Assembly: GCA_017991675.1 (NCBI GenBank) | Contig: JAGOQB010000007.1 | Location: 1-64,000, forward strand | Source of the DNA: Phenylobacterium sp. | GTDB lineage: Bacteria; Pseudomonadota; Alphaproteobacteria; Caulobacterales; Caulobacteraceae | DNA: 64,000 nucleotides | Direction of reading: 5' to 3' | Shown: in pieces, positions 19,046-23,326 of the stretch | How positions within the stretch are numbered: position 1 is the stretch's first letter | Layout of the letters: every line of letters starts with the position of its first letter | Translations under genes and position numbers: made by a program | The notes under the pieces: model-generated | Told to the model about the DNA's origin: nothing | The model's input: the letters and a program-made list of their open reading frames with translations, nothing else | Databases searched by the model: none

Positions 19046-19891
19046 TCAGTCAAAACCCATCTCCGCTCGCAATTCGCCGGGACTTACGCCGCGGGCGCGC
19101 AGGTCGCGCAACGTCTCGGCGTGGTCGCGCTTGGCGAAGCGCTTTCCATCGGGTCCGGTCAACAGGCGATGATGGCGATAGATGGGCGCCGGCAGGTCGA
19201 GCAGGGCCTGCAGCAGCCGCTGGACGTGGGCGGCCTCGAACAGGTCCTGTCCGCGGATCACGTGGGTGACGCCCTGCAGCGCATCGTCGACCACCACGGC
19301 CAGATGGTAGGCGACCCCGACGTCCTTGCGCGCCAGCACGACGTCGCCGCCCGCTAGCGCCGGATCGATGGCGATAGTCCCATGCTCGCCGCCCGGGCCT
19401 TGGCCCTCTTCGGTGAAGCTCAGCGGCCGGCCGGCCAGGGCCTGCTCGGCGGCGTCTAGCGAGAGCCGCCAGGCGAAGGGGCTGCCGGCGGCCAGGCGCT
19501 CAGTCTCCTCCGCCAGCGGCAGCGGCCCGCCGCGGAACAATTCAGCCCGACCATGCGGGGCGCTGGCGGCGGCCTGCGCCAGCTCCTTGCGGGTGCGGAA
19601 GCAGCGATAGGTCAGGTGGTCGGCGGTGAGCGCGGCGAGGGCGGCCTGATAGTCGTCGAGGTGCTCGGACTGGCGGCGGACCGGGGTCTCCCAGGCGATC
19701 CCGAGCCAGTCGAGATCCTCATAGATGGCGTCCTCGAACTCGCGCCGGCTGCGGGTGACGTCGATGTCCTCGATACGCAGGATGAAGCGCCCGCCCGCGG
19801 CGCGCGCGGCCTCGAACGCGGTCAGGGCCGAAAAGGCGTGGCCGCGATGCAGGTAGCCGGTCGGCGAAGGGGCGAAGCGGGTGACGAACAC
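19046..19891 (-). CDS. gluQ: Glutamyl-Q tRNA(Asp) synthetase
   Basis: GluQ-RS attaches glutamate to the queuosine base at the wobble position of tRNA(Asp). The 281-residue protein is a GluRS catalytic core without an anticodon-binding domain. It shows RFAPSPTGYLHRGHAFSAL (HIGH region), FILRIEDIDVTRSR, THVIRGQDLFEAAHVQRLL, and the KMSKS-equivalent GPDGKRFAKRDHAETL. The start is GTG at 19889-19891. It lies 10 nt after the TetR gene stop and 1 nt before the exporter, on one strand. Confidence 0.9.
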   Translation of the reverse strand: MFVTRFAPSPTGYLHRGHAFSALTAFEAARAAGGRFILRIEDIDVTRSRREFEDAIYEDLDWLGIAWETPVRRQSEHLDDYQAALAALTADHLTYRCFRTRKELAQAAASAPHGRAELFRGGPLPLAEETERLAAGSPFAWRLSLDAAEQALAGRPLSFTEEGQGPGGEHGTIAIDPALAGGDVVLARKDVGVAYHLAVVVDDALQGVTHVIRGQDLFEAAHVQRLLQALLDLPAPIYRHHRLLTGPDGKRFAKRDHAETLRDLRARGVSPGELRAEMGFD

Positions 19892-19901
19892 CCGGCCAGC
19901 T

Positions 19902-20531
19902 TTAGCCCTGGTGGGCCTTGCCGAAAATGCCCATGTGCTCGAACACGCCGCGCAGGAAGGCGTCGTCGCCGCCCAGCGACTCCTTCAGGTGGTCGAACTG
20001 CCTGAAGGAGAACATCTCGGCCAGGCCGTGGGCGGCGCTCCAGGCGGCGGTGGTGGCCAGTTCAAGTTCCTGTTCGTCCATCGGACCGGCGCCGGCCTCG
20101 ATCAGGGTGTCGCGCACCTGGCAGTAGGCGCTGTCGTTCTGCGCATGGACGTGCTCGGGCAGGCTGTCCTTGTCGCGCGAGCAGTCGTACATCACCCGAT
20201 AGAGGGCGGGGTTGTCGCGGGCGAACCGGACATAGGCGACGCCCAGCGAGGTGAGCTTGTCGCGCACCGAGGTCTGGCTGGCCCGGGCCTGCGTCATCTG
20301 ATCGTTGAGCAGGTCCCACCCCTCGTGGGCGACGGCCTCGAGCAGGTCGCTCTTGTCCTTGAAGTGGTGGTAGGGCGCGGCCGGGCTGACCCCGGCTTCA
20401 CGCGCCACGGCCCGCAGCGACAGGGCGGTCGGACCCTCGGTCTCCAGCAGTCGCTGGGCAGCGTCGATCAGCGCGCGGCGCAGGTCGCCATGGTGGTAGG
20501 GGCGATTGTCGGCGGCTGCAGCTTCTCTCAT
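19902..20531 (-). CDS. TetR-family regulator controlling twin small membrane proteins
   Basis: The 209-residue protein has an N-terminal helix-turn-helix around residues 30-52 (LSLRAVAREAGVSPAAPYHHF). The helical ligand domain resembles the WHG-type TetR C-terminus (MYDCSRDKDSLPEH, WSAAHGLAEMF). ATG at 20531 is chosen because an upstream in-frame start would extend into the operator. The 133-nt divergent gap carries two adjacent 19-bp sites of the form ATCTNNACNNNGTNNAGAT. Two more copies precede a paralogous small gene 1.4 kb away. It therefore probably represses itself and both small genes. The gluQ and exporter genes lie downstream on the same strand. Confidence 0.85.
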   Translation of the reverse strand: MREAAAADNRPYHHGDLRRALIDAAQRLLETEGPTALSLRAVAREAGVSPAAPYHHFKDKSDLLEAVAHEGWDLLNDQMTQARASQTSVRDKLTSLGVAYVRFARDNPALYRVMYDCSRDKDSLPEHVHAQNDSAYCQVRDTLIEAGAGPMDEQELELATTAAWSAAHGLAEMFSFRQFDHLKESLGGDDAFLRGVFEHMGIFGKAHQG

Positions 20532-20551
20532 GGCGGTCACTCTAAAACTGA

Positions 20552-20590
20552 ATCTGGACGCCGTAAAGATCATCTTGACGGCGTTCAGAT
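20552..20590. promoter_or_regulatory. Tandem TetR operator, sites 1A and 1B
   Basis: Site 1A is ATCTGGACGCCGTAAAGAT (20552-20570) and site 1B is ATCTTGACGGCGTTCAGAT (20572-20590). Each fits the dyad ATCTNNACNNNGTNNAGAT. Their centres are 20 bp apart, and together they make one larger near-palindrome centred at 20571 (17 of 19 pairs). The -35 element of the small gene lies inside site 1B, as expected for repression. Confidence 0.8.
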
Positions 20591-20602
20591 CGCTGTTATC
20601 TT
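20575..20602 (+). promoter_or_regulatory. Predicted promoter of the 37-residue small protein
   Basis: TTGACG (20575-20580), a 16-nt spacer, then TATCTT (20597-20602). The -35 overlaps operator site 1B. The start codon is 62 nt downstream of the -10. Confidence 0.45.
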
Positions 20603-20664
20603 AGCGGTGTTCAAATTACTAAACCCTCGCTCCCCCGAGGGTTCCAACTTGGAAGGTGTGTGTG

Positions 20665-20778
20665 ATGTCTCTCGCTCGTTTCCATCGCTTCGAACGTCTC
20701 TTCGACCGCATCGCGCCGGTCGTGCTGATCGCCCTGAGCGTCAGCCTTGCGGGCGCTACGCTCGCTGTCGGCGCGTAA
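20665..20778 (+). CDS. Small membrane protein A (37 residues) of the TetR regulon
   Basis: ATG at 20665 is preceded by GGAAGG. The product has a basic amphipathic head (MSLARFHRFERLFDRIA) and one hydrophobic helix PVVLIALSVSLAGATLAVGA that ends at the C-terminus. The second small gene at 22061 encodes a clear paralogue sharing R-x-FD, VV, ALS, LAGAT and a final GA. Codons are well used for a GC-rich genome, and a dedicated promoter, operator and terminator frame the gene, so it is very likely real. Function unknown; a single-pass stress or transporter-associated peptide is possible. Confidence 0.8.
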   Translation: MSLARFHRFERLFDRIAPVVLIALSVSLAGATLAVGA

Positions 20779-20802
20779 CGGCCGATCTTCCAGTCTGTGT
20801 CG

Positions 20803-20833
20803 AAAGGGGGCCGGTTCTTCCGGCCCCCTTTTT
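20803..20833 (+). terminator. Rho-independent terminator after small gene A
   Basis: GGGGGCCGG (20806-20814) pairs with CCGGCCCCC (20820-20828) around TTCTT. The stem extends by AAA/TTT and ends in TTTTT. The small gene is therefore a single-gene transcript. Confidence 0.9.
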
Positions 20834-20884
20834 GTTGCGCGATCCTCTGGGGGCAGGGCCTTATCCAGTCTCGGGGAGGGGCGG

Positions 20885-21913
20885 ATGTCTCACGATCTGT
20901 TCGGCGCGCTGGCGCCCGATCGCCGCGAGGCGGCTGGCGCGGCGTTGCGCCAGGTGGCCGGCCGCCGATCGATCTCCAGCCTCTCGCCGGTCTCGGGCGG
21001 CGCGTCCGGCGCGGCGATCTTCCGCGCCGAGATCGCGGGAGGGAGCTACCTGCTGCGGGTGGAGGGCGCCGAGCTTCCGGGCTTGCCGCGCAATCCGCAT
21101 CGGCACGCGTGCGCGCGGCTGGCCGCCGACGCCGGGATTGCTCCGGCCATCCGCCATCTCGACGAGGCGTCGGGCGTCATGGTGACCGACTTCGTCGAGG
21201 CGCAGCCGTTGGAGAGCTATCCAGGGGGCGAGCTGGCGCTGGCGCGGGCGCTGGGCGAGCTCGTCCAGCAGGTCCAGGCCGGCCCGGCGTTCCCGCCGCT
21301 GATCGACTATCAGGAGCTGATGGAGCGACGGCTGGCAGGGCTCGTCGCCTCCGGGCGGTTCATGGCTGGGGCCCTCGATCCCCATTGCGAGCGTCTCGCG
21401 GCGATCCGGCTGGCGCGGCGGGAAGATCCGCCGCCGCCGGCGCCGAGCCATAACGACCCCAATCGTGGGAACATCCTGTTCGACGGCCAGAGGCTCTGGC
21501 TGATCGACTGGGAGTCGGCCTATCGCAACGATCCCTTCGTGGATGTCGCGATCGTGCTCGACAGCCTGGCGAGCGGCCCCGCGTTCGAGGCCGGCCTGCT
21601 GGAGGCCTGGCTCGGCCGGGCCCCGAACGCGGCCGATCGGCGGCGTCTCGCACTCGCCCGCTCGCTCGCACGCCTCTACATGGCCTGCTTCCTGCTCGAC
21701 ATCGGACCGCCGGCGGCTGCGGCCTCCGCCGTCGACGCGCCGGACCCGGCCGACGTGCGGCGGGCGATCATCGCCGGCCGGCTGGCTCGCGGCACGCCCG
21801 AGACGGCGCAGGCCCTGGGGCGGATCTATCTGAGCGGCTTCCTGACCGGCGAGCCGCTGCCGGGTCTGGCCGCGGCCGTCGCGGCCGCCATGGGGGCGCC
21901 GAAGGTCGGCTGA
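20885..21913 (+). CDS. Aminoglycoside-phosphotransferase-family (APH/choline-kinase-like) kinase
   Basis: The 342-residue protein has the APH fold: a glycine-containing N-lobe start (LSPVSGGASGAAIFRAEIAGG), the lysine-equivalent strand YLLRVEG, and the catalytic loop PPPAPSHNDPNRGNILFDG (HxDxxxxN with His-Asn-Asp order HND). The metal aspartate is in LWLIDWESAYRNDPFVDVA. This layout matches small-molecule kinases of the thiamine/choline/aminoglycoside group. The substrate cannot be told. It sits between the two TetR-regulated small genes. The GGGAGG ribosome site precedes ATG at 20885. Confidence 0.78.
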   Translation: MSHDLFGALAPDRREAAGAALRQVAGRRSISSLSPVSGGASGAAIFRAEIAGGSYLLRVEGAELPGLPRNPHRHACARLAADAGIAPAIRHLDEASGVMVTDFVEAQPLESYPGGELALARALGELVQQVQAGPAFPPLIDYQELMERRLAGLVASGRFMAGALDPHCERLAAIRLARREDPPPPAPSHNDPNRGNILFDGQRLWLIDWESAYRNDPFVDVAIVLDSLASGPAFEAGLLEAWLGRAPNAADRRRLALARSLARLYMACFLLDIGPPAAAASAVDAPDPADVRRAIIAGRLARGTPETAQALGRIYLSGFLTGEPLPGLAAAVAAAMGAPKVG

Positions 21914-21950
21914 GCCGGGCGCATGCGGTTCCATGCATTTCTGAATAGCT

Positions 21951-22011
21951 TACATTGTAAAATGTATCTGTACATCGTTCAGATGTGGACTTATCTAAAC
22001 ATCGTCCAGAT
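21951..22011. promoter_or_regulatory. TetR operator sites 2A and 2B with an adjacent palindrome
   Basis: Site 2A is ATCTGTACATCGTTCAGAT (21966-21984) and site 2B is ATCTAAACATCGTCCAGAT (21993-22011). Both fit ATCTNNACNNNGTNNAGAT exactly as in sites 1A and 1B. Centres are 27 bp apart. Directly upstream, TACATT-GTAA-AATGTA (21951-21966) is a perfect separate palindrome. The ATG of small gene B is 50 nt downstream. Confidence 0.8.
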
Positions 22012-22060
22012 GGGCCCGGGCCGGCGCCGCCGCCCCGGATCAACCAAGGGAGTGCAGATC

Positions 22061-22168
22061 ATGACCATCCTCAGCCAACTCGGCCGCATCTTCGACGCCA
22101 GCGTCAGCGTCGTCTTCGTCGCCCTCAGCCTGGGCCTGGCCGGCGCCACCGCCGTCATCGGCGCCTGA
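22061..22168 (+). CDS. Small membrane protein B (35 residues), paralogue of small protein A
   Basis: ATG at 22061 follows AGGGAG with an 8-nt spacer. The product starts MTILSQLGRIFDAS and continues with one membrane helix VSVVFVALSLGLAGATAVIGA that runs to the C-terminus. It aligns without gaps with small protein A over its last 29 residues. A longer in-frame reading from 21923 would translate the operator DNA and is rejected. The two operator copies upstream put it under the TetR regulator at 19902-20531. Confidence 0.8.
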   Translation: MTILSQLGRIFDASVSVVFVALSLGLAGATAVIGA

Positions 22169-22258
22169 TGCTTGGGCAGCGCGCCCCGTCCGCCCGGACC
22201 TGCGCCTCCGGACGGGGCCGCCGAGCTTCATTTCATGGAGCTGTCTCAAAAACCGGCC

Positions 22259-22282
22259 TATAATTCCCTGGCTACGGGAATT
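22259..22282 (+). promoter_or_regulatory. Consensus -10 with an inverted repeat upstream of the HNH gene
   Basis: A perfect TATAAT lies at 22259-22264, overlapping the start of an inverted repeat AATTCCC (22262-22268) / GGGAATT (22276-22282). No good -35 is found at normal spacing. This suggests an activator-dependent or alternative promoter for the HNH gene 105 nt downstream. Only the -10 match and the dyad are direct observations. Confidence 0.35.
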
Positions 22283-22387
22283 CCCCCAACGGGCGATTCG
22301 CCGAGCGCTCGGATCGCGAAAGGGGGCCTGTCTTCAGTCTCTACGCGTACGACATAGGGGGGACCGCCCCCGCCCGGAGGGCCGACC

Positions 22388-22948
22388 ATGCAGGTGCTTA
22401 ACCACCCGCCGTCCGGCTGGCCCTGCCTCGTGCTGAACGCGGACTTCCGTCCCCTCAGCTACTATCCGCTGTCCCTCTGGCCGTGGCAGGAGGTGATCAA
22501 GGCGGTGTTCCTCGATCGCGTTGACGTCGTCTCGACCTACGATCAGGAAGTCCACTCTCCATCCTTCGCGATGAAGCTGCCCAGCGTGGTGTCGCTCAAG
22601 CACTATGTGCCGCAGGACCGGCCGCCGGCCTTCACCCGCTTCAACCTGTTCCTGCGCGACGCCTTCAGCTGCCAGTACTGCACGGCCGGCGAGGACCTGA
22701 CCTTCGACCACGTGGTGCCGCGCTCGCGCGGCGGGCGCACGACCTGGGAAAACATCGTCACGGCCTGCGCGCGCTGCAACCTGGCGAAGGGCGGGCGCAC
22801 CCCGCACGAGGCGCACATGCACCCGTTCAACGCCCCGCGCCGCCCGAGCGCCCACGAGCTGCAGGAGCGCGGCCGCAGGTTCCCGCCGCATCACCTGCAC
22901 AAGAGCTGGCTCGACTACCTCTACTGGGACATCGAGCTGGAGGCTTAG
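22388..22948 (+). CDS. HNH endonuclease
   Basis: The 186-residue protein is a typical stand-alone HNH enzyme of alphaproteobacteria. It has the N-terminal VLNADFRPLSYYPLSLWPWQ region. The zinc-binding and catalytic core is FSCQYCTAGEDLTFDHVVPRSRGGRTTWENIVTACARCN, with two CxxC pairs and the D-H of the ββα-metal motif. The C-terminal tail ends in WLDYLYWDIELEA. Such genes are widely conserved as housekeeping loci rather than as part of a restriction system. Biological role unknown. Confidence 0.88.
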   Translation: MQVLNHPPSGWPCLVLNADFRPLSYYPLSLWPWQEVIKAVFLDRVDVVSTYDQEVHSPSFAMKLPSVVSLKHYVPQDRPPAFTRFNLFLRDAFSCQYCTAGEDLTFDHVVPRSRGGRTTWENIVTACARCNLAKGGRTPHEAHMHPFNAPRRPSAHELQERGRRFPPHHLHKSWLDYLYWDIELEA

Positions 22949-22966
22949 GGCGCGGCGCGCCGTGTC

Positions 22967-23326
22967 CTAGTGCGAGGCGGCGACGACGAGCGGCGACCCG
23001 CCGCCGCTCAGCTTGGCGACCAGCAGAGTGTTGTGGCTGCGGACCATGCCCGGGATCGTGAACAGGTCGACGAGAAGCCAGATCCCCAGCGGGATCAGGA
23101 ACAGAAGGCCGAGCCCCAGGGCGAACAGCAGCGACCAGCCGAGGATCGTGAGGGCCAGCATCGCGACGCCGCTTCCCGTGCGCCCCAGATAGAAACGGTG
23201 GGCGCCGAGGCCGCCGAGGAAGAGCCACAGCAGATACGCCACGCCCGCCGATTTCTTGCTGCTTTCAAAGGCCATCAACGCCTGTGTGTCGGCGCTGATG
23301 CCTGAACTGGCCGGCTTGTCGTTCAT
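22967..23326 (-). CDS. TM2-domain membrane protein
   Basis: The 119-residue product has a short polar N-terminus (MNDKPASSGISADTQALMAF). A TM2 domain follows: two helices GVAYLLWLFLGGLGAHRFYL and the MLALTILGWSLLFALGLGLLF region, with the hallmark GAHRFYLGRTGSG turn. A further helix and a charged end region with DLFTIPGMV complete it. TM2 proteins are small inner-membrane proteins of unclear function. The start at 23326 is the first ATG giving the family sequence; the longer upstream frame is the shadow of the neighbouring flavoprotein gene. Confidence 0.82.
   Translation of the reverse strand: MNDKPASSGISADTQALMAFESSKKSAGVAYLLWLFLGGLGAHRFYLGRTGSGVAMLALTILGWSLLFALGLGLLFLIPLGIWLLVDLFTIPGMVRSHNTLLVAKLSGGGSPLVVAASH

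Follow-up and report, generated by a model that had tools for sequence, protein, structure and literature searches.

What does a TetR-family repressor control when the gene divergent from it encodes a membrane protein of only 37 residues? This question is raised by a locus within the window, that is, the whole stretch of 64,000 nucleotides of Phenylobacterium sp. DNA that was analysed, in which an earlier note, made from the letters alone, had proposed a TetR regulon of small membrane proteins. Our analysis makes it very probable that the locus belongs to a dedicated Caulobacteraceae TetR regulon, whose targets here would be tetR and a pair of genes that encode single-span membrane proteins of 35-37 residues. 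The features on which the argument turns are the following, with positions counted in the window.

19902..20531, minus strand: tetR, gene for a TetR-family repressor of 209 aa with TetR_N and TetR_C_33 domains (Pfam), divergent from gene A.
20552..20570, no strand: operator 1, an exact 19-bp palindrome, 20 nt upstream of the tetR start codon.
20572..20590, no strand: operator 2, exact, overlapping the -35 element (TTGACG, 20575-20580) of gene A.
20575..20602, plus strand: predicted sigma-70-like promoter of gene A, TTGACG - 16 - TATCTT, from a promoter scan.
20598..20616, no strand: operator 3, degenerate (2 mismatches), overlapping the -10 element (TATCTT, 20597-20602), 26 bp from operator 2.
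20622..20643, plus strand: predicted leader RNA hairpin AACCCTCG[CUCCCC]CGAGGGUU, ending 21 nt before the gene A start codon.
20665..20778, plus strand: gene A, 37 aa, one hydrophobic span, with FERxFDR before the span.
20802..20832, plus strand: intrinsic terminator of gene A, folding z-score -5.33 for 20790-20840.
20885..21913: APH-family phosphotransferase gene (kinase-like; Pfam), between A and B.
21966..21984, no strand: operator B1, exact match.
21993..22011, no strand: operator B2, exact match, 27 bp from B1.
22061..22168, plus strand: gene B, 35 aa, paralog of A, one hydrophobic span.

The 19-bp palindromes (ATCTNNACNNNGTNNAGAT) are the predicted target of TetR dimers, and the four that had been reported at 20552, 20572, 21966 and 21993 are indeed exact, each matching 12 of the 12 fixed positions. 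The genome-wide scan for the 19-bp pattern that the earlier note had called for returned these four sites as the sole exact matches in the 3.03-Mb assembly (reversed pattern, 0), which consists of 25 contigs and is 70.7% complete, so that further regulon members could be missing from it. When up to two mismatches are allowed, the 64-kb window holds 8 motif matches, compared to a mean of 0.57 and a largest value of 2 over 100 shuffles. The idea of a site pair upstream of each small gene stands for gene B (21966 and 21993) but has to be redrawn for gene A, of which the promoter pair is 20572 and 20598; owing to this third site, 20552 and 20572 are the outer part of a triplet. The gene A pair (26 bp apart) is therefore the counterpart of the gene B pair (27 bp).

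Note that the motif becomes unspecific at two mismatches, with 114 forward matches genome-wide versus 30 in the reversed control, a comparison from which nothing is drawn since the control differs in word composition, and no regulon membership was concluded from such matches. One-mismatch sites were likewise rejected as a source of extra members: all eight found elsewhere in the genome lie inside long stop-to-stop frames (at least 282 codons each, within the 1.2-kb stretch around each site), bearing in mind that GC-rich DNA yields such frames by chance too. Outside the family, 12 of 40 order-level genomes carry 1-2 exact matches to the single motif (reversed control, 3 genomes), a frequency that predicts roughly one stray match in every three genomes, and in the scan of relatives an exact single site was present in 46 of 100 genomes. 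One exact motif alone is thus no proof of the system, as the motif is not unique to it. As examples of single exact sites set aside among the matches listed, and described by eye, that of L043 falls inside a ribosomal-protein-like frame, that of L035 precedes another TetR gene divergent from an outer-membrane-factor-like gene, and that of L062 comes without a small frame.

The operator pair pattern was found in 143 of the 299 genomes of the family (7 of 22 genera) and in 0 of 299 with the reversed control, and a TetR ortholog is present in 142 of the 143 pair-bearing genomes versus 39 of the 156 genomes that lack the pair, the genome handles having been matched by hand between the two result tables. 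In the lone pair-bearing genome without an ortholog (G153, locus L189), the pair lies ~413 bases from the contig end, and among the 39 TetR-bearing genomes without an exact pair are 11 from the window's own genus, for which 73 genomes were sampled. In addition, among 30 pair loci examined from the 143 pair-bearing genomes, a related small frame adjoins the pair in all 30, of which 28 were recognized by profile and 2 by eye, the latter two on the opposite strand. Class-wide, only 4 of 385 genomes hold the pair, two of them outside the family. The co-occurrence of operator pair, TetR ortholog and small frame across genomes, dispersed copies included, supports the proposal of a TetR regulon of small membrane proteins.

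In the regulator, both Pfam domains were detected with strong scores (TetR_N, E = 1.4e-14; TetR_C_33, E = 5.7e-14), and the structure model is all-helical (pLDDT 84.8) and matches TetR structures in the PDB, the fold search returning general TetR structures only, with 3on2, of unknown function, as the best. The gene, on the minus strand, was rightly described as divergent from the first operator pair. A longer tetR frame is possible, from an upstream start that would run through operator 1; the start codon is most likely the ATG at 20529-20531, because in five orthologs a stop codon in the same frame interrupts the stretch leading from the upstream region to that methionine.

Among 35 other genomes of the same genus, a full TetR ortholog (57-99% identity) was found in 31 and partial matches (66-86%) in G003 and G021, while G008 and G018 gave none better than about 37%. 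At the family scale, an ortholog (E up to 1e-60) occurs in 181 of 299 genomes and 11 of 22 genera, once in each genome. A 17-member TetR alignment recovered 567 confirmed stretches from titled genome records. The 80 best were retained; these are titled Phenylobacterium, Caulobacter, or Caulobacteraceae/Caulobacterales MAGs, the other MAG titles being Alphaproteobacteria, Proteobacteria, Pseudomonadota or bacterium only. A related small frame is divergent from tetR in 79 of these best 80 of 567 loci, and at the 80th the contig ends 168 bases upstream.

The geometry of the operators is conserved along with the genes. Over the window and the 80 loci, the best spacing between sites 2 and 3 is 26 in 70 cases and 27 in 9, with a poor pair (summed mismatches of 7-9) in 10 of 81. 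Within the 70 spacing-26 loci, the information content averages 1.59 bits per column at site 2, 1.23 at site 3 and 0.58 at site 1, compared to 0.42 outside the sites, and the position of operator 3 is conserved across loci. At the place of operator 1, a site with at most two mismatches was found in 61 of 81 loci; lying beside tetR, operator 1 is predicted to serve autoregulation, probably through repression of tetR by its own product.

The promoter scan of 20400-22420 detected a single promoter-like site, that of gene A (shuffles, mean 0.1), and none at gene B or at tetR. The predicted -35 element of gene A lies under operator 2 and its -10 element under operator 3, an arrangement in which TetR, once bound, would keep RNA polymerase from the promoter. 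From this layout and from the co-occurrence described above, which both fit, we infer TetR binding and repression: TetR dimers would occupy the two palindromes, 26-27 bp apart, upstream of each small gene, and the same polymerase block is assumed for gene B. A ligand, perhaps a hydrophobic isoprenoid- or stilbene-like molecule, might then release TetR. Downstream, the terminator after gene A that had been noticed earlier proved real (20802-20832), although a simple terminator scanner missed it, and its strength suggests that gene A forms a short monocistronic unit in the window, with a predicted transcript of ~220 nt from promoter to terminator. A terminator follows the A gene in 30 of 48 loci checked.

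As for the two small proteins, their description as twin paralogous membrane proteins of 37 and 35 residues holds in the window: both frames are there, each with one hydrophobic span, and A and B align locally over 27 residues with a score of 74. Twin genes are not the general state, since loci titled Caulobacter isolates carry a single small frame. The best 19-residue mean hydropathy is 2.23 for A and 2.31 for B, which have no charged residue from position 18 onward. Similarly, each of the 79 first small proteins of the loci has one hydrophobic stretch (19-residue mean hydropathy of at least 1.81), 51 of the 79 match F-E-x(2-4)-D-R, and none (0 of 79) has K, R or E beyond two residues after the last D. 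An N-in, C-out topology was assumed, and it is weakly founded because the N-terminal net charge averages only 0.35 over the first small proteins (A, +2; B, 0). Judged from their orthologs, the small frames are under coding constraint: in 5 of 5 ortholog groups the reading frame has the lowest pN/pS of six, at moderate values (0.42-0.66), with a competing frame within 0.1 pN/pS of it in 3 of the 5. For 22 small-protein members, NCBIfam gave no match up to E 1 and Pfam nothing convincing (best E 0.087), and a PDB search with the small-protein alignment gave nothing credible (all E above 2). The peptides would be expected to insert in the inner membrane and may act there by packing, either with one another or against a partner protein of the membrane.

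The leader of gene A adds an RNA element that, like operator 3, had gone unnoticed. Leaders were compared in 76 of 81 cases (80 loci and the window), after excluding L103 and L140, which have no A gene, and L166, L167 and L169, which have GTG starts. CTCCCC lies within 110 nt of the start in 41 of the 76 gene A leaders and is missing in 35, many of them titled Caulobacter. In loop-centred extracts, for which the CTCCCC occurrence had been picked from its position regardless of pairing, 38 distinct sequences gave 228 cells at the first six flanking positions, and 211 of these cells pair. Shuffling the partners 2000 times, a control that ignores the relatedness of the sequences, gave 148.9 on average (sd 5.6, maximum 169). 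The closing pair is G-C in 17, C-G in 16, A-T in 4 and T-A in 1; the loop sequence is thus kept while the stem changes by compensating pairs. A search of 40 whole genomes with the hairpin pattern found 22 places in 16 genomes (control, 1), of which 20 have an operator-like site (at most 3 mismatches) within 80 nt upstream and 18 a small frame of the A/B family downstream. Of the four without such a frame, two are 129 bases from a contig end, and those of L232 and L237 lack operators too. Rfam returned at best E 0.68 over 20000-23000 (20.8 bits versus a gathering score of 50). In the window, the CUCCCC loop is absent from the leader of gene B; B-type leaders (e.g., L102, L113 and L114) seemingly carry, by eye, a different GC-rich hairpin without this loop.

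We propose that the exposed CUCCCC loop may tune the translation or stability of gene A, or else act in trans. The latter possibility, taken further, leads to a different view of the product, according to which the short transcripts are mainly regulatory RNAs, the loop pairing with GGGAG stretches, akin to Shine-Dalgarno sequences, of other mRNAs and the peptide being a second product, as in a dual-function RNA. Some bacterial small RNAs pair with ribosome sites through C-rich loops, which the CUCCCC loop resembles. A loop kept over a compensating stem, operator-like sites within 80 nt upstream of 20 of the 22 hairpin places in 40 genomes, and a predicted window transcript of ~220 nt would all suit such an RNA; however, the small frame is under coding constraint and was seen at 79 of the best 80 of 567 loci, whereas 35 of the 76 leaders lack CTCCCC. 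We consider this reading unlikely, and note that it is compatible with the TetR regulon, as it alters only what the product does.

Equally doubtful is the view that A and B are toxic membrane peptides, of the type I or stress-peptide kind, which TetR silences. The small gene retains a stable neighbourhood throughout the best 80 of 567 loci, which sets it apart from mobile toxin modules. In its favour, the 79 first small proteins are short, with one hydrophobic stretch and a C-terminal part free of K, R and E beyond two residues after the last D, and toxic peptides with a single span are known, DinQ being one (PMC3567139). A crude scan of 20400-22420, which also missed the tetR and B promoters, showed no antisense promoter-like site of the kind that the antisense RNA antitoxin of a type I system would need.

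Returning to the regulon of tetR and the small genes, in some relatives the unit of operators and small gene appears to have been copied to other places. An operator pair with a related small frame occurs on other contigs in L047, L048, L227, L233 and L236 and probably also in L056, all of the Phenylobacterium group. The copies of L047 and L056 adjoin transporter-like frames, as named by eye. More distant relatives of the regulator may inform on its ligand: in two genomes outside the family, G444 (L241) and G662 (L239), a tetR gene is divergent from a gene for an RPE65-family oxygenase across a pair of the same geometry, and the encoded TetR proteins are 41-47% identical to that of the window across 160-171 aligned positions and possess the same C-terminal domain. 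RPE65-family oxygenases are of the carotenoid/stilbene-cleavage type. This suggests, on the basis of two genomes, that this class of regulator may respond to compounds that are consumed or produced when carotenoids or stilbenes are cleaved. A bolder version, which combines these elements and which we regard as still less probable than either of the two alternatives above, would see in the dispersed units dual-function transcripts, whose CUCCCC hairpin acts in trans on Shine-Dalgarno sequences or a protein while the single-span peptide tunes a membrane complex, under an apocarotenoid- or stilbene-like inducer.

The genes around the regulon were also considered as part of it. In the best 80 of 567 loci, the gene directly after tetR, on the same strand, is always gluQ (window, 19046-19891; 80 of 80), the HNH endonuclease gene (window, 22388-22948, downstream of the small genes) is nearby in 73 of 80, and an EamA gene is near tetR in 44 of 80. 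We found no evident link of gluQ and HNH to the regulon and take them as a stable neighbourhood. In Caulobacter sp. Root343 (L128, ~1339-2514), GreA-like and DNA-glycosylase-like frames are seen by eye between the small gene and HNH. The kinase-like gene flanked by the two small genes does exist in the window, where it belongs to the APH family, but it is not a conserved part of the system: among the compared loci, most of which span ~3-6.6 kb, G022 (88% identical) alone shares it with the window, and it is probably a recent insertion for that reason; absent from all 80 of the best 80 of 567 TetR loci, it was rejected as a regulon member. That the small frames are mere leader peptides or by-products, and that TetR really controls gluQ, the kinase or the HNH gene next to them, is highly improbable, since the constancy of gluQ (80/80) and HNH (73/80) in the best 80 of 567 loci is countered by the strong terminator after A in the window (and a terminator in 30 of 48 loci checked), by copies on other contigs, in which operators and peptide stand apart from tetR, and by a kinase restricted to the window and G022.

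The regulon of tetR and its small genes can be compared with known systems from two sides. On the side of the regulator, it has the domains, the divergent layout and the palindromes over the promoter of autoregulated TetR-family repressors (TetR_C_33 type, nearest solved chain 3on2). It differs from usual TetR repressors in that the target is a very small membrane protein and that the tandem pair, 26-27 bp apart, recurs at dispersed copies; in the TetR pairs of G444 and G662, an RPE65-family oxygenase gene occupies the place of the small gene. Pumps or enzymes are the usual TetR targets (PMC3511530). On the side of the product, the likeness is to DinQ and TimP, in that a very short single-span protein is made under control. 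MgrB and SidA are further regulated small membrane proteins. The present case departs from this kind in being controlled apparently by a TetR, and no relation of its proteins to curated families or PDB chains was found.

Ribosome profiling of C. crescentus revealed 94 previously unknown coding sequences, the majority under 50 aa and with roles largely unexplored (PMC4117421); these come from the same bacterial family as A and B of the window, and the word TetR is absent from the main text of that article. The accessible part of PMC12559287 contains nothing on these genes. As to the suggestion that the regulon may be undescribed, no description of it was recognized among the matches listed for the open-licence papers searched.

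In terms of comparative genomics, the system is best read as a TetR regulon that controls small membrane proteins, is conserved, and includes an RNA element besides. The A/B family of small proteins is conserved in Caulobacter and Phenylobacterium, and a defined regulator, operators and an RNA element can now be given for small membrane proteins without a curated family model. One deletion of the repressor should switch the peptides on, making their role in the membrane directly testable. If this reading is true, these organisms would possess a TetR regulator devoted to small proteins, to which neither a pump nor an enzyme is attached.
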